Part shown: piece after piece, positions 14,410-54,383 of the stretch | Layout: every line of letters begins with the position of its first letter | Position numbering within the stretch: the stretch's first letter is position 1 | Origin: Thunnus maccoyii | Taxonomy: Eukaryota; Chordata; Actinopteri; Scombriformes; Scombridae | Length of the DNA stretch: 64,000 nucleotides | NCBI RefSeq assembly: GCF_910596095.1 | Contig: NC_056548.1 | Span: 11,743,151-11,807,150, forward strand | Direction: 5' to 3' | Program-made: the position numbers and the translations under genes | Notes under the pieces: generated by a model | Database searches by the model: none | What the model saw: only the letters and a program-made list of their open reading frames with translations | Told to the model about the DNA's origin: nothing

Positions 14410-17400
14410 CTACAATGGTGAGAAGGCATAGAATGGAAACTGGGCCTCATCCTCGTCCACAAAGAAACACTGGAAGTAGGGCAGCTCTTCTGTGGAGGGT
14501 ACAGGACAATATGTTTCAGTACAGTTCAGTACAACGTGTTCACTGTGTAATATTTCAGTTATGAGAAGGGAACATGTGCTCACCATCCATAAGAAAGCTG
14601 TCTGATACAGCCGGCTCTGCTAGGAAATGAGAACATAGTGTTCTAGTAATCATAAAACTCTCCAGTATTATCTTGAAATACAAAACTATGTAGTACCTTT
14701 TACTTTTTCCTCTTTGGTAGCTTTCTTCTCAGCAGATTTTTCTGCAACAAAAATAGGAATTTGTGTCCATAAATACAGTAAATAAAGATCTGTTGATGTA
14801 TTTTGTGCACTCTGAATCTATCTGATTACAAATCTAAATTCAAGATACCTTTCTTTGCCGACTCCTGTATCTCTTTAAGAACTCTGTCTTCTGTAAATAA
14901 CAACAAAAAAACAGTCAAAAATTAAATTAAATTCAATCCTGCAGAGAAAATTGAAACTGCTACGAGTATTTTGATATAATTCACAGACATTTTTCTTATT
15001 TGATTATGTCAATGCTCAAAGCTGACTGTTTTATGAATGAGTAATTCAGCTCTACAGCAGCACATTTCATTTTCTTTTCAAGCTCTGGCTTTGTTCTCTG
15101 TAAATAATCAAATATAAATACTACTCATAATAAGTCAAAATGATAAAGCAGCTTTTTCATCCTCTTTCATTTATGAAAGCTTCTTTTTTGCAGAAGTGAT
15201 TTTTCATACAGCATATTGTAGACTTGATTATATAATTATACTAAGCTCATTGCATGCTGTACCTTTCTTTGTTGCAGCAGGTTTGATCATTAGTTAAGTA
15301 TGTTGGTAAGAACTTGTTTAACATTTTACACCCAAATTAAGGTATTTTTTCCTTCTTACAGCTATAAGCCTATGCAGTGTATGGTTTGCCAGTTTCAGGA
15401 TGACTGATAGGAACAATGTCAGTGGTACATTTAGCAGCACTTTAAAATAATATATGTGGTTATGAAAAGACAAGCTTAAAGGACTCGTAGCAAAGCAAAA
15501 ACTGCATCACAATCAACTTCTCAGTGTTGTTCATATTACCAGCATGCATGTTCAGAAAGATACTGGAAAATAATGTGAAACTACAATCTATATGGTTATT
15601 GTTTATAAGCCTTAGATTTATAGAAAAATAAGTCAATATTGAAATATTCTGTATAAATTTCAGATTTATTATAGATTTTTTTCTTGCTGAGTGAAAACAT
15701 CTAGAAATCATTATTTTAGATGTTCTTAAATTTATGGACATTTTCACATTCAGCAGGAAAATATTGCCAGCCTTCAGCAGCAGCAGGCTCAACTTTTATC
15801 CTTTTATATTCTTATAAGTGAAATAGCCATTTCCCCTTTTAGTAATCAAAGAACTACTTTTGCAGTGGCCTTCATGCTGTGATCAGATTGTAAACAGATG
15901 ATCACTGCTGGTTACATAAAGTGCTGCCTCTACTGAAGCACCACACATGTACCTTTCTTCACACGGACTGGTTTGGTCTTTTCCTTAGACATGACTGGGC
16001 CATCGGGGAGAAAATGCAATTGATAACATACACATTTCTTAAATTTGTGGAAGTATTTCTAGTGAAAGGGTTGCTGCATATTTGATCAATTTTTAAAAAT
16101 TCACTGTTTGCACACAGAGATGAACATTTTACCAGTATTCTTACTGGTATACTGATCTAAATAACAGTGATAAATAATCCTTGTACTCAGCACTGTACCT
16201 TTCTTCACTGCAGCAGGTTTGTCTTTTTCTTTAGAAGTCTCCAGTTCTGTGAAGGGAAAAGTAAGGTTAAATATCAGCAATTGGCACACAGATCTTTACA
16301 GCAGAAGCCACAAATACCTCATTTTCACATTTAATTAAATCACAGCATTAAATCACAGCATTGCTACTGCAAAAATGCATTTCTTAAAGCCTGAAGCAGC
16401 TTCCAAAGCCTGGAGCTCATAGAACTAGAAAACTATGTTGGAAAGTAAATTTCTATTTAGCAAAGAGACACATTTGATTTATTCCTTTCCAATCAGCTGC
16501 TGGCTTGGACTTTTCTGCAAAAAATAAATCTTAAGAGTTCTTTCACTTTCACACAATTTTAAAAGTTGTGCACAGAGCCAGAAGACTTTTGTAAGTGATT
16601 ATCAAGCTTTTCAGACAGCTTTTCAAATATGGAATTGAAATATGGCATTATCTTAACATCACACAAAATGTTGATTATGTCAATACATATTCTGGGAAAA
16701 AGACTTGAAAAAGACTTACTTGGTTTGGCTGATTTTGAAGCTTCTGGCTCTATGCTTTGTTTTCTCTAATGTAATGTCTACTGCAGTGACTTTTTTATGT
16801 GGCCTGATTTGTGCCAGATCTGCCAAACCAGAGTAAAAAGCTTGAATTCTCCTGATATGTTCACACATTTCAACATTTACAACACATTGTTAATGTTTGG
16901 TGGGTCAATGGGCCTTGGTTTTGAAATCTAAACTCTTTATAAAGCCTAACAAAATCTTTGTATGCTGTGCTTTGCAAATCTATCAACTATGCACAAATAG
17001 CTTAATACTTGGTGTCTTCGAAAGCATATTTCTAAGCATCACTGCAAAGAAACAGCTGTTTGCCCATGGAGCTGCTGCAGAGAAATCATTCTCAATTTAC
17101 TGTGCAAGATGTTCTCTACAATATATCATTAATAATCTCACAGGCAAAATGCTTGTTTCCCCCCTGAGCCATCCAGTCAGAGCTTTTACAAATACAGATC
17201 ACTGTAATAACAGGTTTCTACTGAAGCACAATTAATGTACCTTTCTTCACACGGACTGGCTTGGCCTTTTCCCTCAACATGGCTGGGCCATTAGGGGGAA
17301 AAATGCACGTCATTAAACTTTATTTATAATCATGAAAGGCACATAATTACAACATATTAAAGGATAATACCCCATTGACACAAAGAGCTGACTTTTAAAA

Positions 17401-20400: not shown

Positions 20401-23400
20401 TTTTCCAGGTTTACGTTTGATTTTTTGTTTTGATTCCTTCTTGGGCTCCTTGGGAGCTGCCACTGGTGAAAAATTGTGACATCAAAAACCCCTTAAGTTT
20501 CAGGTACAGTATTAATAAAGATCACAAATCATTATGTGACACTTTCTTAACTACCTTTTATGTGTAGAACACATAAAAAGTCAGTGTCAGTAAACTTTAA
20601 ATTATGCATAATATCTTGATAGAATATGATTAAGTATAATTCCTACATTGTCCATTTAAAGTGCGAGGGAAAATTAGGTTATAGACATCTAAACAGCTAA
20701 AAAAAACATCATGTCTTACAATTATTGACTTTCTAGAATTTAGAAAAGAAAAGAAAGATGTGTATACCTTTCTTTGTCTTTGGAGGTTCTGGTTTGGCTT
20801 TCACCTTAGTAACTTCACGACCCTCTATTATTAGGGAAAATTTGAAAATATAATCCATTACATCTAAGCCACACAGCTGCATCTACTGTAATTCCAACAC
20901 TGCATCACTGAAGCCAATAGCAACATGTAGTGGTTATTTTTCTGTTTTCATTTTAGGATATCTCAAACAATTCAAGGAGGAGTAATTTAATCACTTACTA
21001 TGCCAGATTTATACAACATGTCATATTTTTTTTAACTTCTTCATGATTATGTCCCAATCCAAAACATCATCCTTTTTAAGACTTGTGAGAAGTTTGTGCT
21101 AATAATTATCTGAATTTCATGATTGATGATCACTTTCTAAGTGACTGTACAGTACACCAGGTGATGGTGAATAGCTACATATCTTCTTAGGATTACTACT
21201 AGAACCTCAAGCTGCAATTTCCAATCACACTCTGATGTTTATTTGGGGTCAGAGTTGTTTATCATCATACACACTGCAGCTTTAAGTTCACATTTGGTTA
21301 TACTGTTACTCACCTGTTTTTGTGACATTCATATGTTCCTTTTTCAGGACAGGGATTATGTGCTTTTTAGCAGCTTTCAGGACCTTTACAGGCTTCTTGT
21401 GTTCAACAGCTGGAAAGGAAGGGAAAACTGATAATGCAATAAATTCAGTATCACGCTGGGTTAGGGTGTTATTTAACTTTATTCTGTTTTATGTCTTTCA
21501 TTTTAGAAAATATGGTATTGTAGGTGAGTTCTGGCTGTTGTAGACAGATTTGAGTCTGTTAGATTGCTAGATTCAGAGATGCTTAGGAGACTTCTACCCT
21601 TACTGGTATCAAACCATACATTGCATTTGAATTGCTGATATATTAATTATCACAGAAATACTTTTAAATAGGGGGATAGTATGATAGGATAATATCTTTT
21701 TTTAATTAATCAAAATATTTTTAAAGTCAGAATCCTGCAAAAGGTCAGATTTTTTTACTTGAGACCTGATGATATTAATTGTTGAGTTGAGTTTATTCCT
21801 AGTCTATTCCTATTGTAACTTGAATTTTGACTCTACATCTTGGCCTCTTGCTTCTGTTCCTATGTCCTGTTGGCATCCAAATACTCTTTTGCAAGCAAGC
21901 ACTTCTTTCTTCCAAATCCTTATAAATGTGTCATTTGTTGCTGCATTTTGTTGCTTTGGCGCCCTCATCAGTAGAATTAAGAAAGAGCAGCAGTGGAATT
22001 TTTGGCATCTGAAACCAACACTGATTGTGGGAAACATGACTTTTTTGCTCATCCATCAACTCCTCTTTAATTCTTTTTGCAGTGGTGCTTCACACTATTC
22101 CCTTCTTTGCCATTCATCATTTTGAGCAGGTTGAAAAATAACAAAGGGGCATTTGTTAATGCATCTGCATGAGGTCGGAAAATGTAAAAATGGGTTGTTT
22201 TAAGCCATTTGCTGTCAATTTTGGATGAGGCCAGTCTCTTAATCTTTTCAACTCTTTTCTTATTTTATCTACATTTATCTTGGTGTAAGCTGTGTCACCG
22301 CAAAATTCTTTAAAAAACAGTTCTCCATGCTTTTACATGTTGTCTTACCTGCTTTTGTTACATTAAGATGTTCCTTCTTCAGGACAGATGCAACCTCCTT
22401 CTTGACTACTTTAATCCCTCTTGCAGCCTTTTGGGGTTTAGCTTCTGAAATAAAAAGGAAAAGCTGAAAAAAGTTTCACATAAATTATACAGTAGAAAGA
22501 AAGATATCCCTCATTCATCAATGGACTCCTTTCAATCTGTTTAGCCATCTTTATGCTCCAGACTGGCCCTCTCTTTGGCACTCTCTATGAGTAACATCAA
22601 AACTACAACTAATAGTTACAATACTTGCATTAATTAGAAAAGTCAATGGATCCTTATATTGTTTAACGGCTACAAACACTGCATTGCTGTCCTATACATA
22701 CCTGTCTTAATGTCTTTCTTCTTTGCAGGTTCTTTGTCTTCTTTGGGAGCCTTCTTGATTTCTTTCTCCTCTTTAGAAGGCTTTGTTGGTTCAGTTTCCT
22801 TCTTAGAGGTCTTCTTTGGTTCATGTTCTTCTTTGTGAATCTTCTTGACCTCTTTTACTACTTTAGAAATCTTAACCTCTTCTTCTTTAGACAGCTTCTT
22901 TGGTTCTGTCTCTTTTTTGGTAGGCCCTTTTCTTTCTTTTTCTTCCATTTTAGGATGTTTTGAAGGTTCTTTTTCTTCTTTAGAGGGTTTCTTTGGTACT
23001 ACCTCTTCTTTGAGAAGCCTCTCTTTCTTTTCCTCTTTCACCTCTTTAGAAACTGGTTGTTTCTTCTCTTTTGAGATCTTTTCTGTTTCTACTTTTGGAG
23101 GTTTTGCTACTACTTTCTCTTCTTTTGGAGGCTTTGTTACTTCTTTGGCCTTCTTAGGTGGTTTTTCTGGTTCTTTTTCTTCTTTTGAGGGCTTCTTTGG
23201 TTCTCTTTCTTCTTTTGGATGCAGTAATTCTTCCTCCTTTTCTTTGAGATGCTTTTTGAGTTCATGTACCACTTTAGGATGTGATGGTTCTTTCTCTTCT
23301 TTGGGGAGTTCTGTTGGTTCTTTTTCCTTTTTAGTTGGTTCTTTCTCTTTTCGGTGAGGTTTTTCCTCCACAGAAGGTTTCTTCATTTCTTTCTCTTCTT

Positions 23401-26400
23401 TAGGAAGCTTCTTCAGTTCTTTTTCCTTTTCGGAAGGCTTTTGAACTTTTTCCTTCATTTTTCTCTTTTCTTCAAGAGCCTTCTCGTCTTCCCTCTCTTT
23501 CTTGGACGGCTGTATTTTCTTTTCTTTAGATGGCTTTTGATCTTCTTTCTCTTCTTTAGAGGGCTTCTTCGCTTCTTTTTCCTCCTTCTCTTCTTTTAGA
23601 GGTTTCTTCACTTCTTTTTTCTCCACATGCTTCTTCTCCGCTGTCTCTTCCTTAGAAGGCTTCTTGTCTTCCCTCTCCTTCTTGAAAAGTGTCACGTTGT
23701 GTGGCATCTTCTCTTCTTTGAGATGTTTCTTCACTTCTTTCTCTTCTTTGGGAGGTTTCTTCTCTTTCTCTTCTTTGAGATGTTTCTTCTCCTCTTTCTC
23801 TTCTTTGAGATGTTTCTTCTCCTCTTTCTCTACTCTATGTGGTTTCTTGACTTCTTTCTCTTCTTTAAGAGGTTTCTTCTCCTCTTTCTCTTCTTTGAGA
23901 TGTTTCTTCTCCTCTTTCTCTACTCTATGTGGTTTCTTGACTTCTTTCTCTTCTTTAAGAGGTTTCTTCTCCTCTTTCTCTTCTTTGAGATGTTTCTTCT
24001 CCTCTTTCTCTACTCTATGTGGTTTCTTGACTTCTTTCTCTTCTTTATGAGGTTTCTTCTCCTCTTTCTCTTCTTTGAGATGTTTCTTCTCCTCTTTCTC
24101 TACTCTATGTGGTTTCTTGACTTCTTTCTCTTCTTTATGAGGTTTCGTCTCCTCTTTCTCTTCTTTGAGATGTTTCTTCTCCTCTTTCTCTACTCTATGT
24201 GGTTTCTTGACTTCTTTCTCTTCTTTATGAGGTTTCTTCTCCTCTTTCTCTTCTTTGAGATGTTTCTTCTCCTCTTTCTCTACTCTATGTGGTTTCTTGA
24301 CTTCTTTCTCTTCTTTATGAGGTTTCTTCTCCTCTTTCTCTTCTTTGGGTAGTTTCTTGGCTTCTTTCTCCTCTTTGGGTGGTTTCTTCAATTCTTTCTC
24401 CTCTTTGGGAGGTTTCTTGACTTCTTTCTCCTCTTTGGGAGGTTTCTTGACTTCTTTTTCTTCTTTAAGTGGTTTCTTAACTTCTTTCTCTTCTTTAGGA
24501 GGTTTCTTCTCCTCTTTCTCTTCTTTGGGTAGTTTCTTAGCTTCTTTTTCTTCTTTGAGTGGTTTCTTGACTTCTTTCTCTTCTTTGGGAGATTTCTTGA
24601 CTTCTTTATCTTCTTTAGGTGGTTTCTTGGCTTCTTTCTCTTCTTTTAGATGCTTCTTTTCCTTCTTCTCTTCTTTGGAGGGTTTCTTCACTTCTTTCTT
24701 TTCCTTAGAAGGCTTTGGTACTTTCTTCCTCTGGGGTTCTTCTAAAAGCAATTAAGAAAGTGTAATTTACATGTCTGTAAATGTCTAACAATGACGGTTA
24801 CCTGGTCACCTGTTATCAAGTGACCTGAGTTATTAAGAGAAACTAAGTTGTAAGTTTACACGTGGACATTTGAGCAATATTTTATTATTACAGACCATCA
24901 TTTCATGATTAAGTGTAATTACCTTTGGGCTTCTCTGGTATCTTCTCAGTAGGTTTTACCTCAGGTTTGGCCTCCTTCTTTGGCTTTTCTTCCATTGGTT
25001 TTATCGCCACGGTTTTCTCAACTTTGGTTTTGTTCTCCTTTTTCTCCTCCTTTTCAATTTCTGTGGCTTTTAGGTCTGTATGCAACAGTACATTTTCTTA
25101 AGAAAAAACATCAAGTGTTCACATTCTTGTCTTCACAAAATAATTTCACAAGAATATTACCTTTCATAAGGGCATCTTTAACTTCTTTTATAGCGTGTCT
25201 TTCCTTTGCGTCTTTGAGAACTGAAGTATATCATACAAAGATATATAAAAATATACAGTATTTATGTAAACAGTGTAACTTGCCTTTTTCCACAATATAT
25301 GATTCAGGCTTGTGTTATAGTCATGGCAAAAGATCATGCTTGCATAAGCACTATAAGCACTACTGTGCTAAAAACACTGTAATTAAAAACACACCACAAG
25401 CTGGATGATGTTCAATAGGTAGAGCTGTACAAAAAAGAATGATATTGTGTTATTCAGTGAAAAAATTTCAGTGACAATAACTGTGGAGGGCAGGCAGGAC
25501 AACAAGACAACAGTACATCAGTACATTGACTAATGTCCTCATCTCGAAACCTAGTCCCTCTCTGTACTAATGACCTCAGCTCACTGCCAAAGGCAATGAC
25601 TGCATGCTTTAAAAGAGGAACATATTAGCACCTTGGGAAATAGACGTCTTTACTGAGTCATCAAAAAGAAAAACAGCACAGTTAAGGAGGCTGTAACTGA
25701 CAGTACCGTAATAGTCTCAAGATCCTTTTTCCAAGTAGCTACTCACACCCAAGTTAGGATGAGTTTCTGATCTAAATAAAACTTAACTTGATCTGTTGTG
25801 TCCATCTTTATTTACTTTTCAATTAAGACCATAATTCGTCTTTTAAAGGAAAGCATGAATATTTTTGGAGATATAAAATGAGAGGATCAATGCAGTTTAA
25901 TTGCTGTGTTTCTAGTAGAGACTGGTCAGGGACACAAAATTATGCAATGCAAGGCAAAGACATGAGTGGATGTGATCAGTAATCCCTCTCGGCAACTCTG
26001 ATTGAGGTGAAGACATGTCTGGGCGAGTAGAATTTTGCTACCTCAACCTGATCAAAAAATTTGCACGTATCCCGAGGTTTTGTATCTCCTATTCTTTGTA
26101 CAGAGGTAAATAGGAAGGGGTGTTGAAGGAAAATAACAGAAAGAACTGAAGTTACTGGTGAATTTTGAAAATACACACCAATATAGCACAGATGCAGAGG
26201 TTGCTAGCTAGCTAACGTTACAGATAACGTAATCTTTACAGTCAAAACATGCTGTTTAGCGAAAGTCCAGTGGTCAAATTCACATATAGAGCATAAATTT
26301 GTTTTCGTATTCAATATGAACACATCCTATAATTAACAAAAGACATCAGAAAAACAAACTTAGATTACCCATCAGCGACTGGATCCAGAATGGGTTTAGT

Positions 26401-27962
26401 TTAGCTTAACCTAAAAACCGCAAGCACAGGGAAATAGTAAGCCTTACAACAAGTCCAATTTCTTATTTGATTGTATCCTAAAAAGCTACACATACATCCA
26501 AGTGTTACCTGGGTTTTGTTTGGAGTCATGATATTGTGAACAACTGGAAACCATATGAGGACTTTTGAGCTGAACTGTTGCAGCTTTGCAGTTTCACTCT
26601 ATTTCCATTTTGTGCTAAGCTAGGCTAAACACATCCCGCACCTGTCTGTACTGGACACACAGATATTAAACTGGTAAATTCTCCTTCTCAGAACAAGTGA
26701 ATTTCCTGAAAAGGTGGAATGTTATGTTTTTTAAAAATTTTTTATCTGTAATAAGCCTGGCCATTTCTATCATGAAAACTTTGGTTTTGTTTAAAACTTT
26801 GATGTTCTGCTTAGTGATTATTAATAGTAGCTACCATCACAAAAACAATTCACAAACATCATTTTAACAAAAAAACACTGAAATCGAAATATGAAACATG
26901 TCACATCAACCACCGAACAAATAACTGTTAGGCCCTAACAACTTTAGTCATGTCACAACCAACACATTTAGTAGAAAAAACCCACATTCATCATGTTACA
27001 AAATGTTAAGAAATTGTAAATATGATAAAAACGTACAATGTCATTCAACATTACATTTTCACTCATCATTCAGAAACATTTTCATTATCAGATAATGAAA
27101 GAATTATGAAAACTATGTGATGATAATGGTAAAGATTGTTGTACCTTTGTCATGTTGTTTGTGTTCTTCTTTGTGAACAGCTCTGGATCCGACTCTTCTG
27201 ACTCTCTCAACGGGAATATGAACCTTCCTCTTTCGTTTAGGTTCAGTTTTCCCATTCTCGCTGTTGTTGTTGTTCTCATCGTGATCATCGACAATGTCAG
27301 CGTGTTCGTCTTTGTCGTGAACATGTGGTGAAGTCATCGTTTCTTCTTCATCCTCATCATCAGATTCAGATACTAAACTGTCATCATTGAGCTGTTCAGC
27401 TGACAGAATTTCAAGATGAAGATGTTGGACTGATGGCTCTTTTTCTTCTTCCTCCTCTTCTTCCACTGCCTTATCATCTTCCTCCTCTAGAGCCTGATCG
27501 TCCCAATCAGTTTTTACAGATTGATCTTTGACATCAGTATCTTCATCACCATGAAGATCTTTTTCTTTGTCATCTTCATGGTCATAATCTCTGGTCTCCA
27601 TATCTTTATCAATGGTGGCAGCAGCAGCTTCAGTCTCCTCCTCCTCCTCCTCTTCCTCCTCGTCAGCCTCTACAACATCTTCTTCTGTTATTGCCTCCTC
27701 CTCCTCACTCTCCTTCTCCTCCTCCTCATCTTGTGCCAAAGCTTCTGCCAATTTGGTCTCCTCCTCCTCTTCCTCTTCCTCTTCCTCCTCATCTTCAACC
27801 ATGTCTTCTGTTTTTGTCTCCTCCTCCTTCTCTTCCTCCTCATCTTGTCCCAAAACTTCTACCAATTTGGTCTCCTCCTCCTCCTCCTCTTCCTCTTCCT
27901 CTTCCTCCTCTTCTCCCAAACCTTCTTCAGTTTTGGTCTCCTCCTCCCCATCTTCTTCCTCC

Positions 27963-27994
<32 letters not shown>

Positions 27995-30900
27995 AGTTTT
28001 TGTCTCCTCTATTTTCTCCTCATCCTCATCTTCTACAAAATCTTCTTCAGCTTTGGCCTCCTCCTCTTCCTCCTCCTCCTCCTCCTCCTCATCTTCTACA
28101 AAATCTTCTTCAGTTTTGGCTGCCTCCTCCTCCTCCTCATCCTCTTCCTCCTCCTCCCCGTCCTCCTCATCTTCTACCACCTCTTCTTCTGTTTTTGTTT
28201 CTTCCTCCTCCTCTGAATATTCAACCAAATTTTCTGCAGTTTTGGCCTCCTCCTCCTCCTCCTCCAGCTCCTCCTCTTCCTTTACTTCAGCCTCCTCTGT
28301 TTTAATATCTTCTTCTTGTTCTTGTTCTTTGTCATCATCCTCTATTTTGAAGTCCTCCTCCTCCTTTTCTGTGTCAACACTTCCTTCCTCTTTTTCCTCC
28401 TCCTGCTCTTCCTCATTTTCCATGTGTGCTCCATCCTCCTCTGTTTTAATCTCCTCCTCCTCCTCCTCCTCCTCCTCCTCCTCTTCTACAGCATCAACCT
28501 CTTTTGCTTCTTCCTGTTTCTCCTCTTCACTGTCAGCAGCATCAAGGATTTCCTCATCTTTCAGTGACGGTTCGAGTTCTGTTTCTTCAATGCCGGCATG
28601 TTTCACTAGTGGTGTGATAGCAACAAATTTAATCTCTCTTTCATTGCATTCTTTAATCTGACTAACGAATATGACTATTGAGGAAAAATCATGTGAATAC
28701 CATCATCTTCCTCTGTCTCTTTGCCATCTGCTTCAGTTGGAACCTCAGCCTCCTCCTCCTCCTCCTCCATCTTTGAGTCTGGGGCTTCACTTATCTCCGG
28801 AGCAGGAACAGCTTCATGTTTGGCAGCGTGCATGATCTCTGTAACTGTATCATTAACCGATGTGACCTCTCTTAACAGTTCTTCACATCTTTGGCTTTTA
28901 AAAAGTAGGTCCAAACTTGTTTTTTTGGTATACGGGGACTTTGATGGAGTAAAATGAGTGATACATTTATACCACAATAAAGTATACACCACATGCTGTA
29001 GTTAGCGTCCTTCCCTATTTGATTATGAACATTTTGACTGTTTTTTTTACAGTTTTTTTCTCTCAACACTTTCCAAAATAACTTTAATCAATAATAATCT
29101 CAGCGCTAACTTTTAAAGCATGTGGTGTAAACTTGTACGATGTACACACAGATGAAATGTCATTCAGAACAAACAATACAAATACATGATGTATCACAGA
29201 TAAATTGTTTTACATACAGATGAAGGTCAGTCACTCAGTCGGTCGTACAGAAGATGCTTGGACAATGCGGGAGAGGGACACAAAGGAATGCAACTCCAAA
29301 GGACACATTTTCATGCTTAGTATTACACAGAAAACCCTCATTTCAAATGAGTTTTGAATGAGTTTGAATGAGAATGAGTTTTATTTTGTAAATTTAAAGA
29401 CCTGTCAGTGTGACAAAGGGTGCGAGTGATGCAGTAACAAACCCATAAGAACTTGGTTGTATAGAGACATTTATTCCAATGAAATTATACTGCAGGTATG
29501 ATGCATATTTGTTCATGCAGTAAGATTATTTAAATGATTTAATAAGTGAAACATGGAGTTTATTCAAACAAGAGTGACATACAGTTTCATAGTACACCAG
29601 GCACACAAGGCAGACTTCAGACAAGAAGTGGTAAGAAAAACAAAAAATTCAATTTCATGCATGAAAGGTCAGAAACAGATATAGAATAAACACCCAAATA
29701 GGTCTATGCACACTATTTGCCGCCAACACACATTGCACTTGTCCGAAGTAAACATATATAGTGTACATATCCAATGTGTATTCTCTTACCTTTCTCGAAA
29801 GGTGGCAGAAATTCACCTACATTTCAAAGAAGATATGGTAATTAAAGACAATAAGCTTGATTTGTAAAGAAGTTATTTTTAGTGTGACAGCAAAGAGAAA
29901 TAGAAGAATATTATCAGTACTTACCTTTCCTTCTGACCAAATTAATATCAGCCGGAGAAATTTCATCTAAATAAAGAGAAAAAAAAAAGACATACTGTGT
30001 GATTGTCGTTTAACTGACACAAATACATAAAAACTGTAATAAAAAAGTGAAACCTTTTTCAGTTACTACATCTACAACTGGTGTGGCAAGAGGTTCACCT
30101 AAAACAAGAAAAAAAGAAAGAAAATGTTTTTTTTTTAGTATAAAGTGTATTTTTTTAATCTTTTCTGCAAGTCTAATAGCATCTTAGCATAATTTCGTGT
30201 ATAACCAATGCAAACAAGCATACCTTGATCACCAACGAACATGCTTGATATATAAGCCATGAACAAATCTTTCTTGTCTGAGACCTCCAACACAGCATCT
30301 TCAACAACTTTCATGGGGTCAATGGACACCTCAGGCAAGATTCCTGAAATATCAACACACCACACAGTGAGTAAAAGCTCTTCACAGTATTCCTGACACC
30401 ATACTTTATATTCTTATAATGCTCAATTCGGAGAAATGTCTAAGTAGTCACAGTATAAAATGGGATGGAAATTTTCTGCCATTATATGTTAAAACAGACC
30501 TTGTTCACCCATCAGCAATGTGGAGAAGTAGCTCACAAGCATGTTAATCTGTTCTGTGGTGATTTCTGCTGTTCTCTTCAGGACTGCCATAGGACTGAAT
30601 CCCACAGAATGCTGGACATCTGATCAACAAAGAAGTCAAAGCAATTATTTTCATGAATAAATATTTAAGATATAATTGAGTTTGTAGTTGAAGACTACAG
30701 CTGTCAGGCTACAGAGGAAACATTGTAGAGGTTAAAATCCATGTTTGATATTGTACTTGTTAATGCAGCCAGTATTACATCCAAGACTGCAAAAAGCACA
30801 TTCTGGATGTATCCTGCTATTCCACTTACAATGTCATTTTTTGCTATGTAGACATTTTAAAAGACAATTAAGGACTTATCACTACCACTACTACTACAAC

Positions 30901-33900
30901 AAGCTTTTAGTACCATAGTTAGTGGACCTTCATCCTTTTAAATTTGTATTTTAGCAACCAGTTTATTCTAATGTACAGTGCAATGCCATTTAGAAACACA
31001 AACCAACAGTTTTCGAGTAATTTAGTAAGTAATTTCTAGTATATGTAGCAACAAATAAGGATTCAATAAGACAGGCATGATGATACTTCATGTACATATT
31101 GCACCACAAGTAATCCAAAGGTTAAAACATGAAGCAGGTACCTTTCATTATATCCAGTACACTGTCTAAAATGAAGCAGAGCGCATCCTGGATGTAGCCC
31201 ATTATTACACCCACAGTGTCATTTGTAACACTGAAGACATTTCTGCCAATTACCACGGGGTCGATGAAGCCAAGGTCAATGATTCCTGAGGGAAAAAAAC
31301 AAAATGAAGGAGTATAGAGAACAGATATGTACAACCAATACTATAGTGTTAAATTGTAATTTTAAAATGTTAAGAGGTTACAGATTAAGCAGAATGTTAA
31401 GTACCTTTCGCTACATCTAGAATACTGTCCAAAATGGCACAAAGCACTTCCTGGACGTAGCCGCCCACTTCACACATAAGCTCATTAGTAACACTGAAGA
31501 CACCTCTGCCTATTACTACAGGGTCAATGAAGCTGAGGTCAATTTTTCCTGAGAAAAGCACAGACATTTGTTAGGGGAAAATCACTGATTAATACTTAAA
31601 GCAGACACTTGAGCTCAACATAAAGCAAATTATTGAAGTAGTTTAAGTAATTGGCATGATTATCATGTTATTTGACTGGGTGTGAAACATGGAAGGCAAA
31701 TAAAATCTTATATTCAAATGTAGATTACAAACCTCTATTTATAGCCAATATAATATCAATTATAGTATCCATGATAGCACAGAGTGTGTCCCTGATGGAT
31801 CCCACCACTCCACACACGAGGTCATTAGTTGAATGGAAAGCTCGTCTGCCGATGATTACAGGGTCAACGTAGCTGAGGTAGAAGTTTCCTGGGTTTTGGA
31901 AGGAGATTTTTAGAGACATGGGTTCATCACATTTATATAAAAATGCTCTGTTCCTGAAAGTTTGCATATTGTTCGAGTATTAGTGTCGTTTCATACCCTC
32001 CTCATCTGAGAAATATCGAACAAATCCATCCTTTGCTTCTGCTATTTCATCTGCCGCATAAGTGGCAGCAGACATGGGGTCACTTAAATCAGGCGCACAT
32101 TCTAGGGGTGCAGAAATGAGAGTCAGATATTACAGTACTTGCTTTTAAACATAACAAAGTGTCTCATGCATGCCAGTTCACTACTGTACCTTGAAACTTA
32201 TTGAGCAGACTGGATACTTCATCAACAGCATCGTTTACAGCTTGCACAGGGTCCGTTATGATTTGCTGAATGTCTGAGAGTACCAACAAACAGACATACT
32301 GATTAGTCTGCATGTCTGATGACTGAAATGACATTACATTAAAAAGAAACCTTTTTGTTTAGGTATTTGTGACTTACCAGGGACTGCTTTGTACTCCACA
32401 AAGTCAAACATCACCACTCCCACCACCACCCAGGACAGCAGAGCAGCCAGAGCAATCATCAGCTCCACAGACACTCTCAGCTTATTGAGGAGCCCCAGAC
32501 CTTTAGGTTTCTCAGAGCTCGCCGGTGGTGCTGCGGCTGCTGCATTGGGCTCACTGGCGGCGGACGAGGGGCCGGATTTGTCCCCTTTATTTGGAAAAAC
32601 AAAAAGATGCTAAAGTCACTTTGAGAACTCTCAACATCATCAAGACAGACCTGTTATTGGTCAAAGTACTGATGGTTATGGTGTTTCTTTTATATTGTTT
32701 CTGACTTTTTAAAGCTTCTATGCAAGAACAAGTTGTTATTATTTATTTTTTGATTTGTTGTATGTTAGGTTCATTCTTTTACAGTCAGTCTGACTGAATG
32801 GCAGGGCAGATATATCAGCCAATATTAGCTTATCACAAATGTATTAGTATCTGTATATATATATATATAATTCTGGTATGTGATGGCAGGTAAGTAACAA
32901 GAAATTGCTCTAGAGAAATGACAAAGATATTTGTTGAAATGACATATAGTGGTTTGTCCATAGTTTCATAGTTTATTTTTCAACTGTAAATGTCTCACTC
33001 AGTACATATCTATGTCACACTTCTTTCATGAACTAATTTAAGGGATCCTTTTGAAATGTGTTTTTTTCAATGTCATGTGTATATGTAAAAAAAAAAACAC
33101 TGCAGATACATCGTTGTTGGATTTTTTAAAAATCCCTAAAATATTGATATCAGTACCTGCTTTAAAAATTCATTATTAGTCTGGCTCTTGAAAATATCCT
33201 CTTACAAAAGCTTCTTTTTGCTAACTACAAAGTTCCTAATGAATGTTAATTGTCCATTTCCATTTTGATAAAAAGTTAACAGAAGATCCTTGTGTGATGT
33301 TTCTAGGGCTGCAACTAACGATTATTTCATTACTGATTAATCTGATTATTCTCTTTATGAATTGTTTTGTCTACAAAACGTCAGAAAATATAACTTCAAG
33401 GTGATGTCTTCAAATGTCATGTTTTGTCCGAAATTCAAAAGATATTCAGTTTATTGTCACATTTGAGAAGCTGCAACCAGCAAATTTTTAGCATTCTTCC
33501 TTCAAAAAATTACTAAAACGATTATCCAATTATCAAAGTAGTTTCTGATTCATTTTCTGTCCATCAACTAATCGACTAATCATTGCAGCTCTAAATATTT
33601 CTACCTTGAATATCGATCTGGTCCATTAATATGTTCTTATAAAAAAATCATTCATTTTATGACTTTAACACATGCCTTAGTCAAGTCTCTGACCAGGAAG
33701 TCACTGTATTGCGGCATGTATGGAAAAAATGATGTTCTTCCAAAGCCACATTTCATGTCTCATCATCTTCTCACTGCGGCTAAACCCTGATAGGTTAGGA
33801 ATATTTCTTATTTGATAAAAGGATTTAAATCACTACATGGTTGAGACAGTGTGTCTGACATGTGTGACAGATTATATGGTGTAGACAACCGCACTTTATC

Positions 33901-34661
33901 TGATATCTCACGCATTTTGCCAAATGAAAGATAAAAACAGGTTTAGCAGGACTTATCTATCAGTTCTATAAGTTTTCCAAACATGATTCACAGCTGTTAG
34001 GCACATTGGAAAATGTTTGTGCAGTCTTTAATAATGTTCTCACCATCACTTGTGCTTTCCAGCTCGGAACTGGTGCCAAGGTGCTAGAGACACATTCCAA
34101 CTGTGAATGAACTCTAAGCATACCTGACTCATGATTCACTTCCACATATACAAGTGCTGCGATATGAAAAAACACAAAACAGCTCCTTCACTCCTCTGAA
34201 CTATACAGGACGGACAGGTGGTGTCACTATTTCAACACACATTTGCTCTGTGGGGGGAGCTGCCTGTTTAGTCAAGCCCTGAAGCTTCATCAAACAAATG
34301 ATTTGGTTGTAAGATATCATTTGTTTTAGCATATTACATTAAAAGACTTTTTTTTAAATGGCAAAAAGAAGTTGTTCGAAGTTGTTGGAAACCTTAATGT
34401 CAGCAACAGCAGCAGCAGTTATGTGTCTCATGTCACAGGAGAGCAACGCTAATACTCTGGCTACATGATATCCTGTATTTATAGCAACCAACTTTCAACA
34501 CATTTTCCTAAGAGGACGCAACCTATCAAAACATTGCCATTTTTTATTTATTACATAGCATTTATTGTTGGGGATTTGGTGCCCAGTAACAAACAATAAG
34601 TGTTGTTAATTTCACAAAAGGTGAGTGAGGTTGCAGGTATAACAATCCTACCTTCAGTCAT
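14410..34661 (-). CDS. trdn: trdn, triadin, greatly expanded (about 43 coding exons, about 2156 aa)
   Basis: Single-pass junctional sarcoplasmic-reticulum protein; in known triadins the luminal KEKE region binds calsequestrin and the ryanodine receptor. Start codon at 34659-34661 (exon 34652-34661, coding MTE); transmembrane exon 32378-32584; last exon 14410-14489, stop TAG. Identity rests on the membrane-proximal MFDFVEYK (MFDLVDYK in human), the KEKE luminal domain, and the C-terminal PYFQCFFVDEDEAQFPFYAF, which parallels human FFQC...FQFPF. Joining all exons with consensus splice sites gives 6471 nt with no frame break. Predicted layout: cytosolic tail and membrane segment 1-72, DP modules 73-363, short linkers to 447, acidic region 448-934, linkers to 1005, KEKE giant exon 1006-1685, micro-exon array to 2130, conserved tail 2131-2156. 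All internal junctions are phase 1. Real isoforms probably skip many exons. ASPH/junctin was excluded because no hydroxylase domain is present. Confidence 0.9.
15060..15295 (-). pseudogene. Two degenerate trdn micro-exons
   Basis: On the minus strand, 15250-15295 retains CCTGCTGCAACAAAGAAAG followed by a good gta donor, but no AG acceptor lies close upstream. At about 15066-15107 an AG acceptor is followed by AGAACAAAGCCAGAGCTTGA, which would put a TGA stop in the phase used by every real exon of the array. Both resemble members of the array and look like dead duplicates. Confidence 0.45.
16476..16515 (-). pseudogene. trdn micro-exon with destroyed splice donor
   Basis: Minus strand shows a fair acceptor (tttttgcag), then codons for KSKPAADWK in the array's phase, ending GGAAAG followed by ga instead of gt. 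Apart from the donor it looks like its neighbours, so it is probably a recently inactivated exon. If a GA donor or a nearby cryptic site is used, it could still be coding. Confidence 0.45.
22702..24741 (-). other. trdn: trdn giant KEKE exon (2040 bp)
   Basis: One uninterrupted open exon of 2040 bp, phase 1 at both ends, coding about 680 residues made mainly of Lys, Glu and Pro. The basic unit is ten residues, K-K-P-x-K-E-E-K-E-x, repeated with variations over the whole length. KEKE motifs are the calsequestrin-binding signature of triadin, so a role in calsequestrin capture is inferred. Acceptor cttttag at the 24742 side and donor gtatgt at the 22701 side. The coding strand is extremely purine-rich. 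The reading frames on the plus strand of this stretch are antisense shadows. Confidence 0.88.
23791..24350 (-). repeat. 90-bp coding minisatellite inside trdn
   Basis: The landmark 'tctactctatgtggtttctt' (plus strand) recurs at exact 90-bp spacing, six copies with the first near 23829 and the last near 24279. Each 90-bp unit is three 30-bp sub-units coding KKPHRVEKEE, KKHLKEEKEE and KKP(H/L)KEEKEV. Copies differ by only a few substitutions, so the array is young or homogenised. Copy number is likely to vary between individuals. Confidence 0.92.
24923..25220 (-). other. trdn: trdn linker exons between acidic and KEKE blocks
   Basis: Exon 25161-25220 (60 bp) codes LKDAKERHAIKEVKDALMK and exon 24923-25075 (153 bp) codes a Lys/Glu/Pro stretch containing KPMEEKPKKEAKPEVKP. 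Both are phase 1-1 with good splice signals and join the acidic exon to the giant KEKE exon in frame. Confidence 0.8.
25221..27144. other. trdn intron between acidic and KEKE blocks
   Basis: 1.9 kb without a convincing exon. The sequence is AT-rich; I see no repeat family I recognise and no open frame with coding character. Confidence 0.5.
27145..28605 (-). other. trdn: trdn giant acidic exon (1461 bp)
   Basis: Uninterrupted exon of 1461 bp, phase 1-1, coding about 487 residues dominated by Glu with Asp, Lys, Thr and Val. It starts KHAGIEETELEPSLKDEEIL and has a repeated theme of E-rich runs punctuated by ETKTEE, AKTEEDFVEDE and KLVEVLGQDEEE. Near its C-terminal end it turns basic (KRKRKVHIPVERVRRVG...). 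Known triadins have only a short acidic patch after the membrane segment. A calcium-buffering or calsequestrin-like role is possible but is inference from composition. Acceptor caccactag, donor gtacaa. Confidence 0.85.
28701..28838 (-). other. trdn: trdn exon leading into the acidic block
   Basis: 138-bp phase 1-1 exon coding IMHAAKHEAVPAPEISEAPD, then an E-run, then EVPTEADGKETEEDD. It joins in frame to the acidic exon. Its acceptor (gttacag) has a weak pyrimidine tract, so the upstream boundary is less certain than the others. The intron upstream (28839-29789) shows nothing I recognise. Confidence 0.65.
29790..30098 (-). other. trdn: trdn linker micro-exons
   Basis: Exons 30054-30098 (EPLATPVVDVVTEK), 29925-29966 (EISPADINLVRRK) and 29790-29816 (EFLPPFEK, only 27 bp). 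All are phase 1-1 with AG acceptors and gt donors and join the DP modules to the acidic region. Confidence 0.7.
30224..32273 (-). other. trdn: trdn membrane-proximal DP-module exon array (7 exons)
   Basis: In transcript order: 32190-32273, 31997-32101, 31733-31888, 31405-31548, 31142-31285, 30500-30619, 30224-30343. All are phase 1-1. Six have Asp-Pro, and the seventh Ser-Pro, at an equivalent place (ITDPVQAVND, LSDPMSAATY, YVDPVIIGRR, FIDPVVIGRG, FIDPVVIGRN, FSPMAVLKRT, SIDPMKVVED). The three central exons are close duplicates, sharing F/YxDPVxIGR, S-x-TN-(D/E), and LC(A/F)I(L/M)D with a conserved luminal Cys. From memory, mammalian triadin has one such DP segment directly after the membrane. 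Predicted amphipathic helices; function unknown. Confidence 0.82.
30757..30843 (-). pseudogene. Truncated DP-module exon of trdn (relic or short exon)
   Basis: The 87 bp code KNDIVSGIAGYIQNVLFAVL then DVILAALT, matching the C-terminal half of the neighbouring DP modules (TNDTVGVIMGYIQDALCFIL). The N-terminal half with FIDPVVIGR is missing. An AG precedes and a GT follows in the array's phase 1-1, so it could be spliced in frame, but the acceptor lacks a good pyrimidine tract. It is left out of the 2156-aa model. Confidence 0.55.
32378..32584 (-). other. trdn: trdn transmembrane exon
   Basis: 207-bp exon giving residues 4-72 of the model: a Ser/Ala/Pro-rich cytosolic tail with AAAAAAPPASSEKPKG, basic NKLR, then a hydrophobic span at about residues 44-66 (MIALAALLSWVVVGVVMF) and the hallmark DFVEYK. 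Orientation (N-terminus cytosolic, C-terminus in the lumen) follows known triadins. Confidence 0.9.
32585..34651. other. trdn first intron
   Basis: 2.07 kb intron between the 10-nt coding part of exon 1 and the membrane exon. It contains a MITE copy (33304-33593), a short TA repeat near 32856-32871 and nothing coding that I can support. Confidence 0.6.
33304..33593 (+). mobile_element. hAT-like MITE, copy 2, with possible 8-bp target duplication
   Basis: Begins tagggctgcaactaacgatt and ends attgcagctcta, giving inverted termini. The flanks are gatgtttc (33296-33303) and aatatttc (33594-33601), matching at 6 of 8 positions as expected for an aged 8-bp target-site duplication of the hAT superfamily. 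Interior landmarks match the other copies. Confidence 0.75.
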
Positions 34662-35952
34662 GGTGATGTGGAGACTATTTCAGTTATAATCCTTTGAGTT
34701 GGGGGCAAAGCCTCATGCAGAACTGACTGGAAATGCTTCAGTAAATCCAGTCAGCATCCACTTGTCAGTTAAATAGAGTCCCAGTTAGTAAATTATTCCA
34801 TTTCCACTTGGTGATTACAATCTTGTTTCCTGACCCATGTAATCCACAGGTTGAACTTCTCCAAGAAAAAAAAAAAAAGAGAAGAAAACGGAAACTAAAA
34901 TTTTAAGATTACAGGTGTTGGGGAATTTGGAGCTGCCGGTGCGGCCGCATTGCAGAGGGGAGTCTGGGGATGGTGGGGCAAAGAAAAGCAAAGCAAGGGA
35001 GGAAAGAGCCAAGCTAAGCACAGGGCTGGGTTGGGTGACGGGGATCAGACAGAATATCCCACTCAATGTTATTGGTGCCACACATGGGTATAGGTCAGAA
35101 CAGAGCACAGGCAGGCTACAAGGTAACTTTATCCCCCAGAAGGTCCAGGTTATTCTTAGCTGATCTCTGCACACCAGCCGCTCTGGCAGGCCTTTTTTGG
35201 CGGTTGAGGGGGTGTGTGTAAGATCAGTTGGCTGAACTGAGCACCCCTACTGGTGGGGCACTAATCTGCAATCTGCCCCTAAACTGGGACAAATCAGCTG
35301 ACCAAGACAAGGAATGGACAACACTACAGGTGGAAATCGTCCTTTACTTTAAACACCACCCTCCAAACTTCATGCTCACAACATTAAGTGCTTTGTCCTC
35401 CAACTGGCACTGGTGATTATATAGATGACTGCAAATTATTTGATTTTATTCAGGGGTTTTTTCATTTACTCATTTACTTAGAATTTCAGATAACTTGTTA
35501 TGTTTGGTTTCATTTGGCAGCTTTCAAACAAACATGTTTCCAAACTTATAAATGACTTCACCAATAATTCAATCCAATGTTTGCAATCCGTCAACAGCAC
35601 CCTCCTGAGCAACTTTTTGCACCCTGCAACAGCTTGAACTACTATATCAGTGCTGTGTTCTGTATACACTATACTCTAGAAACTGTTTACAACAAAGTAA
35701 ACCCGTAACAAGTGTATAAGTAATATTTTCATTTGAGAGCAATTTTAAAAACTTCAGTCATTTTATACACAGTAGGTATAGGTACACAGACATAAAATAA
35801 GCTTTATTTTAAGAACCTTAAAACTTACTGTACTTTAGGTACAACATACACCCCAATACACAAGCTGTATGAAGCTCCAAAAGAGAGAGAGAGAAAAAAG
35901 ACAAAACATCAAACGTATTATATACACACACACACATGCATAAACATGGTCT
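34662..35952. other. Upstream region of trdn and 3' flank of traf3ip2
   Basis: 1.3 kb without coding exons. The left part should hold the trdn promoter and 5' UTR; I see no clear TATA box. A moderately GC-rich patch at 34915-35235 has no recognised motif. The right part, up to 35952, should contain the traf3ip2 3' UTR. Confidence 0.45.
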
Positions 35953-38900
35953 TTACAGTGTAGCTGCAGCACTGGGGGTCACAGGCCTGATGATGAGGGT
36001 GAGCTCCATTGGCACAGGAGGAGGAACGAATCTCTCCTCCCTCAGCAGCCGCAGTAACAAGTCCTCAGTGTCCTGTGGCCAGCGGTATACACGCGTGTTC
36101 TGAAGCCAACGTGGGACATGTTTCTGTGAAGAGTGTGCATGTGTTCGTTAAGGTAGATAGTGAGAAAATGAGAAAAATGAAGTGGGCAATAGTGTAAAAA
36201 TGCTTTCTGTTATGAAGCAGAAGTGTTACGTTTTCTGACCTGGGATGCATTGAGGAAGAGAACCGGGATGAATCTGAAATTCAAGCTGCCTTGTTGGATG
36301 AATTCATTCTGCATCTGGCAAAATTTGGATTAAAAAAAGTACCTATTAGCAATTTGTCTCAGTATTTTTGTCTTATTTAAACAAATAGCATGTTTTTTCT
36401 CACCATGGAGTGAACATATTTAGTGTGTAGACCATGGCTGTCCACTACAGATCCTTCAATATCTGCCTTATACTTTGGACTGATGGCGATGATAATCAGG
36501 GTTGTTGGCTGTTTGAAAAAACACACATTTTGTGCACATTCACAGCTTGAAAAAACAACAGCAATTACAGCAAAAAAACAACATTAATACCTTAAAGTTC
36601 ACAGACACTGCAGACCAAAAGATAAATATTAGAATTCTGTTGGAATATTCATTAACTCTTAAACTACAATGTCATATTTAGTCAGATTGTGTCCTTTAAG
36701 TCATAAAAGTTTATAGAAATAAAATTTATAAAGTGACAATGAAGCAATAATAAATTGCTAAATTATTGAACTTTTCACTTACATCTTTCAGGTAACTGTC
36801 CTTCCACTTATTGATGTCCATGCATCTAATGGGGTTATCAAATATGTCAATCTGTGAAATCAGAGTCTGTTAGTGTACTTGCACAATGTTTTACAGGTTT
36901 CTGAAAGAAAAGACATTTGCGTTAAAGATCTATAGAAGCTTACAGCTGGTTGGAAACCTTGCTTCGTGAGGAAGTCTATGAAGGGGACCATCTCTGAAGA
37001 CGTGTCCGAGGAATAGGTTATGAAGACGTTTCCTGAGAAGAGGACAGATCATATAATCACTACTATGGTAGTTGTTTGTTAATTCTGTGATAGGTTTAAA
37101 AGTGTACTTTGTGTATTGGGCTACACTGTGTTGAGAGGTGTTTCCAACATTTTGTCCACCTGAATTACATGACAACCACCTAACAAATGATGCAGTCCAA
37201 TACACTAACACACTAACACCACATTGCAGCCTCCAAAATGATCATAAAGATGAATCAATACCTCAGACACTTTCAACAGTGGTTCAAAATTATCACAAAG
37301 GTTTTACCCAAAAATATGAATGAGATAAACATTTCAATAAACCCAAAGCAGGGATATTCTTTATTGTATTCTTTTATAATCTAGTTGAAATCATTTACAA
37401 AATAGAATTTTCATTTTCCTCCTCATGTATATTCACATAAAATGAAATTATACCTAAACAGGCCGGGCAGGTTAATACAGACACACATTAACAACACACC
37501 CTGCTTCCAGTGCTCACTTTATGAAAATAATAATAATTACTTTTAAAAGCCCCACACAAAAGCAATCATTTTCTTCACAGGATTTACTTTTGTTTTATTG
37601 ATCCAACGATCCAAAAAACCTAAGGGCAGAAAATGACTCACGGCACTCATTAGGCAGACTGATGGTTTGTCTTTTCTCATGTGGATGTGAGGCAGACGCC
37701 TCTGCTCCTGCTGAGCTCAGGCTCATCACGCTGATCTGAGACACACTCTCTACAGGGGGGACGGAGAACTGTGGCACGTTTACTGAGACACCTCCTCGGG
37801 CCGTGCTGTCATTCATGAAATTATCATGAGGTATGAGCCTGAAGCGGCCAGAAAGAAAAACAAACAATAGCTCTTCAGTTGAATTGCTCAGAAATGTGAA
37901 GCACCTGAGTAGCATGCAAATTAGATCTGACTCACTGCATTTTCGAGAATATCAACAGTGAGTTTGGAAGAAATTTACTTCCCTCAGTCTAAACCAAAGA
38001 GGTTCAAGAACTTTTACCAGTTTTGGGAGTCAGCCCAGGGACCTCTGTGCTGGTGACATGGATGAGGTTGGTGTGGATTGAGATTGTACTGACTTTCTCC
38101 TGCAGAGTGGTAATACCTGACATCCGTAGTATGATGAAAGACTGTGGACACAGTTTAAACAGTTTAGACATTTCTACGTGAAAGTTGAACATGATAAAAA
38201 AGTTGATGGTCTTGTTGAAGTGCCAGCTCAGAATTACAAGACAGAAACTGTCTTAAAAAAAAAAGACAGAAGGTAAAAAGGAGGTTTCAAGATCAAATAC
38301 ACATAAACCTACTGATCAGCTAAATTAATAATAAAAATACAACTGTTGCTAATGGCAGTGGTGGAAGTACTGTACTTAAGTGCAAGTTTAAAGTGAAAGC
38401 AGTAGTGACTATACAGATTAAGATTTTACAGACATGCAATCCATTTATACGACAGGATGCATTGTTACAGATTAAACTACCAACAGTAAGTAGTTAAAAT
38501 TTATATTTAAATGCTGCTTAAACATTTATCAATCAATCAAACAAACTTTATTTATAATGTACCTTTCATACATGACACATATGACAAACACAGGGTGGTA
38601 AATAAGGATTGGGAGACTAAAGCACAACAAGATACAAGAAAAATGTAAGTAAAATAAATAAATAAAAAAAGATAATATCTAATAGTAGATTAGAAAGAGA
38701 AAGATTAAATAATAAATAAATAAATAATAATAATTAACTAGTAAGGGGCTATTCTGGTGCATCATGAGTACTATTACTTTACTTGAAGTACATTTTGCTG
38801 ATATTTCTATACCTTCACTAAAGTAGGATTTTGAATGCAGGACTTTTACTTATAGTTTAGTATTTTTACACTGACTGTTGTGTTGCTACTCTTTCTTAAG

Positions 38901-42041: not shown

Positions 42042-53226
<11,185 letters not shown>

Positions 53227-54383
53227 TCTCTACTTTCTGTGGGTAAGAGAGAAAAAACACAGAGATGGAATTAGTGCGTAGGTAAAATAATAGCTCAAAA
53301 GCCGACTCCAGTGGGGAAATTATGATTCAATATTCCATTATTTCAGAGCTTCCTCTGAGAGTTACAGCGAGCCTTCTGAAAAATCTTTCAATTATGCTGA
53401 AATTAAACACGATACTTCAAACTCCATCACTAATTATACAGAGGAGCATAATGCGACAGAGCTGCAGTGTTTGGCTCCTTTTGATCGCTGTTGTAAACAT
53501 TTGTACACATTGATGTTGACGTGAGACACTTAACACTGAGAATATCCAGCTAAACTTGCCATAAAAGAATTTAACAGCACTACTTAGCATGGTTTACTTT
53601 TCCATCTTATTGCACGACCACACATGTGAAAAAGATTTACACCCAACCGTTGCATTTACAAGTTGGTGTGCGCTTTATTTTTGTTTGCTTTACAAGGAGC
53701 CACACACCCGTCTATAGATTCAGAGTTAAAATGCACAGAGAGACCCTTAACAGCAAACCGCTCCCTGGCTCTACGCTGGGTCTCATGAGGGGCGACTGAT
53801 GGAGCATTTGGCCTAAGCTAAACCAGTTTCTGTAATGACTGAGGCAATCTGCTTTGCCAATTAAAAAGTGCCTTACCGTCTTTAAAGACCCAGTTAAACT
53901 AATGCACATTTCTGCTCCCTGTGCCCCCCCCCCCTCCTCTCCTCTAAGCCCTGGAAGCTCATGCAGCCGGTACAACACGGCTATGAAGAGACTGCTGACA
54001 GCACTGTTGTCTTTCATCAGCATTAGCAGCCAGCTGACTTCGGAGATGGCTAATTGGAAACACACTTGTTTACAGTTGCTGTGGACGGGGATGGGATGCC
54101 GCAGCAGACGGAGGAAGAGGGAAACCGGCGCAAAGCTCTTGACCCCGACTAGAGACTCCGTTATATCCACAATAACAGTACAGCTGGTTGGCTCTTTTGT
54201 GTCAAGAGTAATTTTTTTGTAACCAGAGAAATAATCAACTTATGAATAATGTTTTTGCTGGTGAGTCAGGCAAAAAAAATATAATATATCAGCAGCATCA
54301 GTATACAGTTTCATTTGGGAAGATTCTTTCTTAGACTCATTACGTGTTATCCTCTGCATACTTCAAATGACATCTTTTATATC

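Follow-up and report, generated by a model that had tools for sequence, protein, structure and literature searches.

On the minus strand of a 64,000-nucleotide (nt) stretch of the Thunnus maccoyii genome (contig NC_056548.1; the whole stretch is referred to here as the window), seven consecutive exons, E2 to E8, form an array of short repeated modules behind the membrane-segment exon of a triadin-type gene. Judged by its sequence, this array gene is a second, teleost triadin-type gene and a paralog of annotated triadin (TRDN). Our reading, to which we give slightly less than an even chance, is that its luminal part grew by exon duplication into a stalk that could be disulfide linked and tuned by splicing.

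The exon array and its modules

The initial annotation had described seven consecutive phase 1-1 exons in 30224 to 32273, six with an Asp-Pro (DP) core and one, E7, with Ser-Pro (SP) in its place, and the coordinates and splice borders confirm all of this. Every exon is bounded by AG and GT, with lengths from E2 to E8 of 84, 105, 156, 144, 144, 120, and 120 nt, and the introns between the membrane exon and E8 total ~1.3 kilobases (kb), as calculated from the coordinates. The members of the array are as follows:

32190..32273, minus strand: E2, class A DP module (hhalign match to the triadin DP segment, 98.1%, 1.1e-13)
31997..32101, minus strand: E3, class A DP module (hhalign match to E8, 95.8%, 7.2e-9; to triadin, 79.1%)
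31733..31888, minus strand: E4, class B unit 1, 52 amino acids (aa), two cysteines (splice borders, unit comparison)
31405..31548, minus strand: E5, class B unit 2, 48 aa, two cysteines (splice borders, unit comparison)
31142..31285, minus strand: E6, class B unit 3, 48 aa, one cysteine (splice borders, unit comparison)
30757..30860, minus strand: decayed class B unit between E6 and E7 (DNA match to E6)
30500..30619, minus strand: E7, class A module with SP (hhalign match to E8, 96.4%, 1.4e-9)
30224..30343, minus strand: E8, class A DP module (hhalign match to the triadin DP segment, 96.6%, 4.9e-10)

(i) Class A consists of E2, E3, E7, and E8, all of which have profile matches to the triadin DP segment (79 to 83% for E3 and E7), the match between E2 and E7 being weak (7.2%). 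This class appears to have arisen by multiplication of the triadin DP segment.

(ii) Class B consists of E4 to E6, whose unit of 48 to 52 aa (xDPVVIGR...LCxILD) looks like a separate one: its profile finds no convincing match to the class A modules or to the triadin DP segment (best probability, 4.8%).

Since E2, E3, E7, and E8 match by profile and E4 to E6 do not, we distinguish two classes and reject the single D-P family into which all seven modules had been placed. Weak pairwise scores between the classes (E6–E7, z 4.3, 1 of 500 shuffles; E6–E8, z 3.5, 3 of 500; E2–E4, z 2.9, 8 of 500) would still allow for a very old common origin of both.

The class B exons are alike at the protein level, with z scores of 25.7 for E4–E5, 20.2 for E4–E6, and 31.5 for E5–E6, scores reached by 0 of 500 shuffles for each pair. 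In DNA, E5 and E6 match at 76% across the exon and ~5 bases on each side, and the match of E4 and E5 is 70% and spans the first 127 bases of the exon, while E4 and E6 give no blastn match at E 0.01 (rows of 100% in this self-comparison are physically overlapping flanks). The three had been called close duplicates sharing FIDPVVIGR and a conserved cysteine; the duplication holds (z 20 to 32), as does the cysteine of L-C-x-I-x-D, which is present in all three exons, but the motif is exact only in E5 and E6, with E4 reading YVDPVIIGR. As expected of tandem exon duplication, similarity is confined to adjacent exons of equal phase. Among E4, E5, and E6, the ratio of nonsynonymous to synonymous substitution rates (dN/dS) is 0.29 to 0.41 (44 codons; dS, 0.58 to 1.40); these values suggest coding constraint, as far as so short a stretch allows.

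A fourth class B copy at about 30757 to 30860, missing from the initial list, matches E6 at 75% over 63 bases and is nearest to the last units of two relatives, P0002 and P0006 (61% identity over 33 residues; P numbers denote the proteins retrieved in our searches). It has an in-frame TAA, lacks an acceptor at the homologous place, and carries Phe instead of the conserved cysteine. Speaking against its being dead, an inner piece of 87 bases (30757 to 30843; 29 aa) has an open phase 1-1 frame between an AG and a GT, both in weak surroundings.

Kinship with annotated triadin

The array gene keeps the triadin layout through to a YFQC terminal exon. Outside the array, its parts are as follows:

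34652..34661, minus strand: candidate first coding exon MTE(G), found by pattern search (CACC before the ATG, GT donor, phase 1); one of seven candidates with ATG, 7 bases, and a donor in 32584 to 37600, picked on peptide and context
32378..32584, minus strand: exon for the cytosolic tail and membrane segment, ending MFDFVEYKAVP (splice sites, alignment to relatives)
30054..30098, minus strand: exon GEPLATPVVDVVTEK (splice borders, alignment)
29925..29966, minus strand: exon DEISPADINLVRRK (splice borders, alignment)
29790..29816, minus strand: exon GEFLPPFEK, common to annotated triadins (VRKKGEFLP in P0049 and P0052)
27113..28702, minus strand: Glu-rich open frame, 529 aa stop to stop (frame ends, not exon borders)
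22670..24751, minus strand: Lys/Glu (KEKE-like) repeat open frame, 693 aa stop to stop (frame ends, not exon borders), Lys and Glu making up 64% of its listed stretch
14410..14489, minus strand: terminal coding exon EELPYFQCFFVDEDEAQFPFYAFSPL with its stop, found by pattern search and resembling by eye the end of triadin P0048 (RYFQCIYIPG...PFTP)

Several of these features are those of a triadin-type protein in the broad sense: a membrane segment ending MFD..[DE]YK and followed by a DP segment (aligned with triadin P0035; E2 against the DP profile, 1.1e-13), a Lys/Glu-rich luminal frame (presumably spliced to the array), and a C-terminal FQC...PF exon (by eye). Annotated fish triadins likewise have a short N-terminal tail, one membrane segment with an adjacent DP segment, the GEFLPP exon, a Lys/Glu-rich luminal part, and the YFQC C-terminal exon; they differ in having one DP segment, no class B unit, N-terminal motifs of their own, and a clade of their own.

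Three protein searches listed 17, 35, and 86 proteins (the last at E up to 10), each scoring only the ~8000 candidates that shared most words. The class B hidden Markov model (HMM) matches 26 of the 109 proteins fetched and none of the 44 whose name contains triadin, many of which are short isoforms or fragments (118 to 410 aa). Each of the 44 has one DP-segment match, a count partly built in, as the DP profile was trained on 13 of them and 3 others. Mammalian triadin presumably also has one DP segment; our comparison covers fish triadins and a single human row in the tree below. The initial view that the module is foreign to known descriptions of triadin agrees with these counts, and no description of the array or its gene was found in the open-licence literature on triadin, fish paralogs, and exon duplication, as far as its text was available, including the accessible parts of PMC8471218 and PMC10864312.

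A tree built from the membrane and DP segments (74 columns, midpoint root) separates, with support of 98/96, 13 rows (the window protein, 11 array proteins, and Alosa P0045) from 18 others, namely, 16 triadin-type proteins, ASPH, and human triadin; Alosa and ASPH sit on long branches. The window and array proteins accordingly fall outside the grouping of proteins named triadin. Moreover, four fishes have both kinds of protein: in Poecilia mexicana (P0011; P0049 and P0077) and Liparis tanakae (P0021; P0098), the second protein is named triadin, and in Lucifuga dentata (P0008; P0044) and Takifugu rubripes (P0009; P0068), it is an unnamed triadin-type protein that groups with the triadins. Because both proteins occur in these four fishes and the array proteins form a separate clade, the array gene is not the annotated triadin gene, to which the initial annotation had assigned it; the repeated, cysteine-bearing, amphipathic, membrane-proximal module described there does follow the membrane segment of a triadin-type protein, but in a different host gene. 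That the array gene is nonetheless the ordinary fish triadin gene, simply with an array, is highly improbable: the layout and terminal exon are those of triadin, but the four species with both proteins already contradict it, the TTT..VID and TFSSP motifs of the compared triadins are absent from the window gene, the clades are separate, and a search of the window protein at E up to 1 gave no PF05279 match, although this is a soft marker, with precomputed matches in 31 of the 44 named triadins.

PF05279 is the N-terminal family of junctin and aspartyl beta-hydroxylase (ASPH); like the array protein, its members have a single membrane segment and, behind it, [LF][VMD][DE]Y. This family is matched by triadin P0035, which also weakly matches ASPH structure 9fvu, whereas the window protein matches neither at E up to 1. 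Pfam returned nothing for the window protein but a subthreshold match to DUF2884, and the array profile, searched against PDB sequences, gave nothing at E up to 1, ASPH structures included.

Class B units in other fishes

The array is not peculiar to the window genome, being present in gene models of several spiny-rayed fishes, where its relatives are filed as "uncharacterized" or "hypothetical." Class B units number five in P0001 (Fundulus); four in P0002, P0003, P0007, P0009, P0018, and P0019; one in the salmonids P0014 and P0020; and fewer in partial models. We compared 52 units, 3 from the window and 49 from 17 relatives, the latter retrieved with the pattern DPV..GR (P0036, a partial unit, and P0018 were left out, and two P0005 rows are identical to P0004 rows from the same gene). 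The cysteine at the LCxILD position is present in 50 of the 52 and a cysteine at a second place in 11; D9, P10, V11, G14, and R15 are present in all 52, although the conservation of this core is partly built in, the same pattern having retrieved the units of relatives.

A varying unit number (0 or 1 to 5 among fishes) and a decayed copy in the window would suit an array that is merely a tolerated side effect of exon duplication and serves no function of its own. We regard this as quite improbable given the dN/dS values and the near-constant cysteine and DPV..GR core of the units.

Relatives also give hints of how the exons are used. P0007 (400 aa, from a 1539-base contig) holds four units in one frame, and P0013 (291 aa, from a 961-base contig) holds three; these contigs leave no room for introns such as those of the window and so look like complementary DNA (cDNA), an assignment made from size against introns, the libraries being unnamed. 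Strict mutual exclusion of the array exons is rejected for those relatives in which several units stand in one protein. Two grouper isoform models (X3 and X2; P0004 and P0005) have three units each and four together, sharing units 1 and 3 and differing in whether unit 2 or unit 4 is included. Adjacent homologous symmetric exons, used as different subsets in two gene models of the grouper, recall tandem exon duplication with alternative splicing, as treated in the available text of PMC9013439 and PMC9741552; those systems use one unit at a time, whereas relatives of the array gene keep three to five together in one frame.

The duplicated exons could serve mainly isoform choice, with units swapped by tissue and total length of little weight. 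Every exon is symmetric, the grouper isoforms differ as described, and units partly keep their identity by position in the unit tree, where the salmonid units fall in the unit-1 group (94/90). However, P0001, P0002, P0003, P0007, P0009, and P0019 hold four or five units together, so the units are not strict alternatives; the grouper isoforms are known as gene models; and the unit tree (48 columns, with the two P0005 rows dropped and the decayed copy added) is poorly resolved, with 22 of its 48 inner branches open. We consider isoform choice as the main role rather unlikely.

The herring relative of the array gene, P0045 of Alosa alosa, has another duplicated luminal segment (~50 aa, ending KYV.S, by eye), which is perhaps an independent expansion; the class B HMM found no class B unit in this protein.

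A possible luminal stalk and its setting

Across the 52 units, the mean hydrophobicity of residues 10 to 47 peaks at a periodicity of 96 to 98 degrees per residue, near an 11-residue repeat (a peak not reached in any of 1000 column shuffles), and is weaker at the 102 to 103 degrees of a heptad coiled coil. AlphaFold 2 (AF2) models a single unit as one helix over the same residues, 5.7 nm long if straight, with a predicted local distance difference test (pLDDT) score of 63.5 and a predicted template modeling (pTM) score of 0.29; the E4 row of its alignment has no overlap with the modeled unit. At 98 degrees per residue, the cysteine positions, 37 and 26, lie 143 degrees from the hydrophobic center, so the cysteines would be exposed, and acidic positions 23, 34, 41, and 45 (D or E in 46, 35, 51, and 45 of the 52 units) lie 152 to 176 degrees from it. 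The class B unit thus looks like one long amphipathic helix, with cysteine and acids on its predicted polar face. The single unit yields such a helix at modest confidence; a model of the entire luminal array, made from 17 sequences with P0002 in first place, was poor (pLDDT, 37.5) and was set aside.

Such helices might instead lie on the luminal face of the sarcoplasmic reticulum membrane, targeting or shaping it, without forming a stalk or oligomers. The preference for the 11-residue over the heptad periodicity and the position of the units after the membrane segment would suit this arrangement, but E5 and E6 each carry a net charge of −4 (E4, −1), typical membrane-binding helices are unlike such negatively charged units, and the conserved cysteine of the polar face would be left without explanation. 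We consider it unlikely.

Under the stalk reading, tandem exon duplication would have lengthened the membrane-proximal luminal part, just inside the calcium store: the triadin DP segment would have been multiplied into E2, E3, E7, and E8, and a distinct class B unit would have been added and then multiplied into E4 to E6 and the decayed copy. The class B helices may pack together by their hydrophobic faces, leaving the cysteines and an acidic stripe exposed. The array would be a stalk, lockable by disulfides and tuned by the number of symmetric cassette exons included, that makes the protein longer and gathers it into clusters next to the calcium-release channel; calsequestrin and the channel would be bound by the acidic and KEKE parts, as they are in triadin. 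The cited papers, as far as available, describe triadin as multimerizing via luminal Cys270 and Cys649 (PMC9026860), as forming anchors ~4.3 nm between receptor feet that are bundled by S-S bonds (PMC3388061), and as activating RyR1 through residues 200 to 231 (PMC3427183). We think it most likely that an anchor of this kind is extended and clustered by the array, whose cysteines may mediate disulfide-linked oligomers.

The exons, the paralogy, the conservation of unit and cysteine in relatives, and the variation in unit number are what the sequences show, and the stalk reading builds on them; its weakest steps are the packing of helices against one another, as opposed to on the membrane, and the formation of disulfides by the cysteines. 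Several points weigh against it. The T. maccoyii array was read from genome sequence, and its Lys/Glu frames and terminal exon are presumed to be joined to it. The dN/dS values come from 44 codons with dS up to 1.4, two of the 52 units lack the cysteine, and the AF2 scores are modest for the single unit and low for the array. Finally, unit number varies and one unit has decayed here, such that a fixed number is not required. A more specific version, to which we assign a small probability, is that of an adjustable stalk, in which unit number, changed by exon birth and death and by splicing, would set the spacing or clustering of calsequestrin and the ryanodine receptor per lineage and muscle type, with one unit in salmonids, probably four early in spiny-rayed fishes, five in Fundulus, and three plus a decayed copy here.

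Elsewhere in the array gene, a 90-base tandem repeat inside the Lys/Glu frame (23709 to 24703; 11.1 copies, 90% matches) probably varies in length between individuals. Two similar 32-aa exons (22349 to 22444 and 21314 to 21409, minus strand), both ending KKEH(L/M)NVTK(A/T), are apparently another tandem exon duplication, and they resemble the NVTKA that presumably stands near the end of human triadin. A loose mechanical scan gave six candidate Lys-rich phase 1-1 exons of 15 to 16 aa, alike in pattern, in 17830 to 20141 (minus strand). Neighboring frames contain, by Pfam, SH2 and tyrosine-kinase exons (42042 to 53229, minus strand), which we take to be FYN-like, and a USP40 domain (3045 to 3551, plus strand). 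A further neighbor, named by eye as traf3ip2-like, resembles P0006 (Scortum barcoo) and P0016 (Lates japonicus). In both of these gene models, the opening exons of the array gene are fused to a traf3ip2-like (SEFIR) protein, likely through annotation errors caused by the adjacency of the genes. An Rfam gathering search of the whole window gave 0 matches.

Triadin is a core component of the muscle calcium-release unit, and TRDN mutations cause a lethal human arrhythmia syndrome (PMC8471218, as available); for its membrane-proximal luminal part, no function was found in the accessible text of the triadin literature searched. If fishes indeed have a second triadin-type gene, studies that knock down fish "trdn" or measure its expression may capture only part of the triadin supply, and the varying number of equal-phase helix units would offer a natural experiment on the role of triadin's membrane-proximal luminal part.

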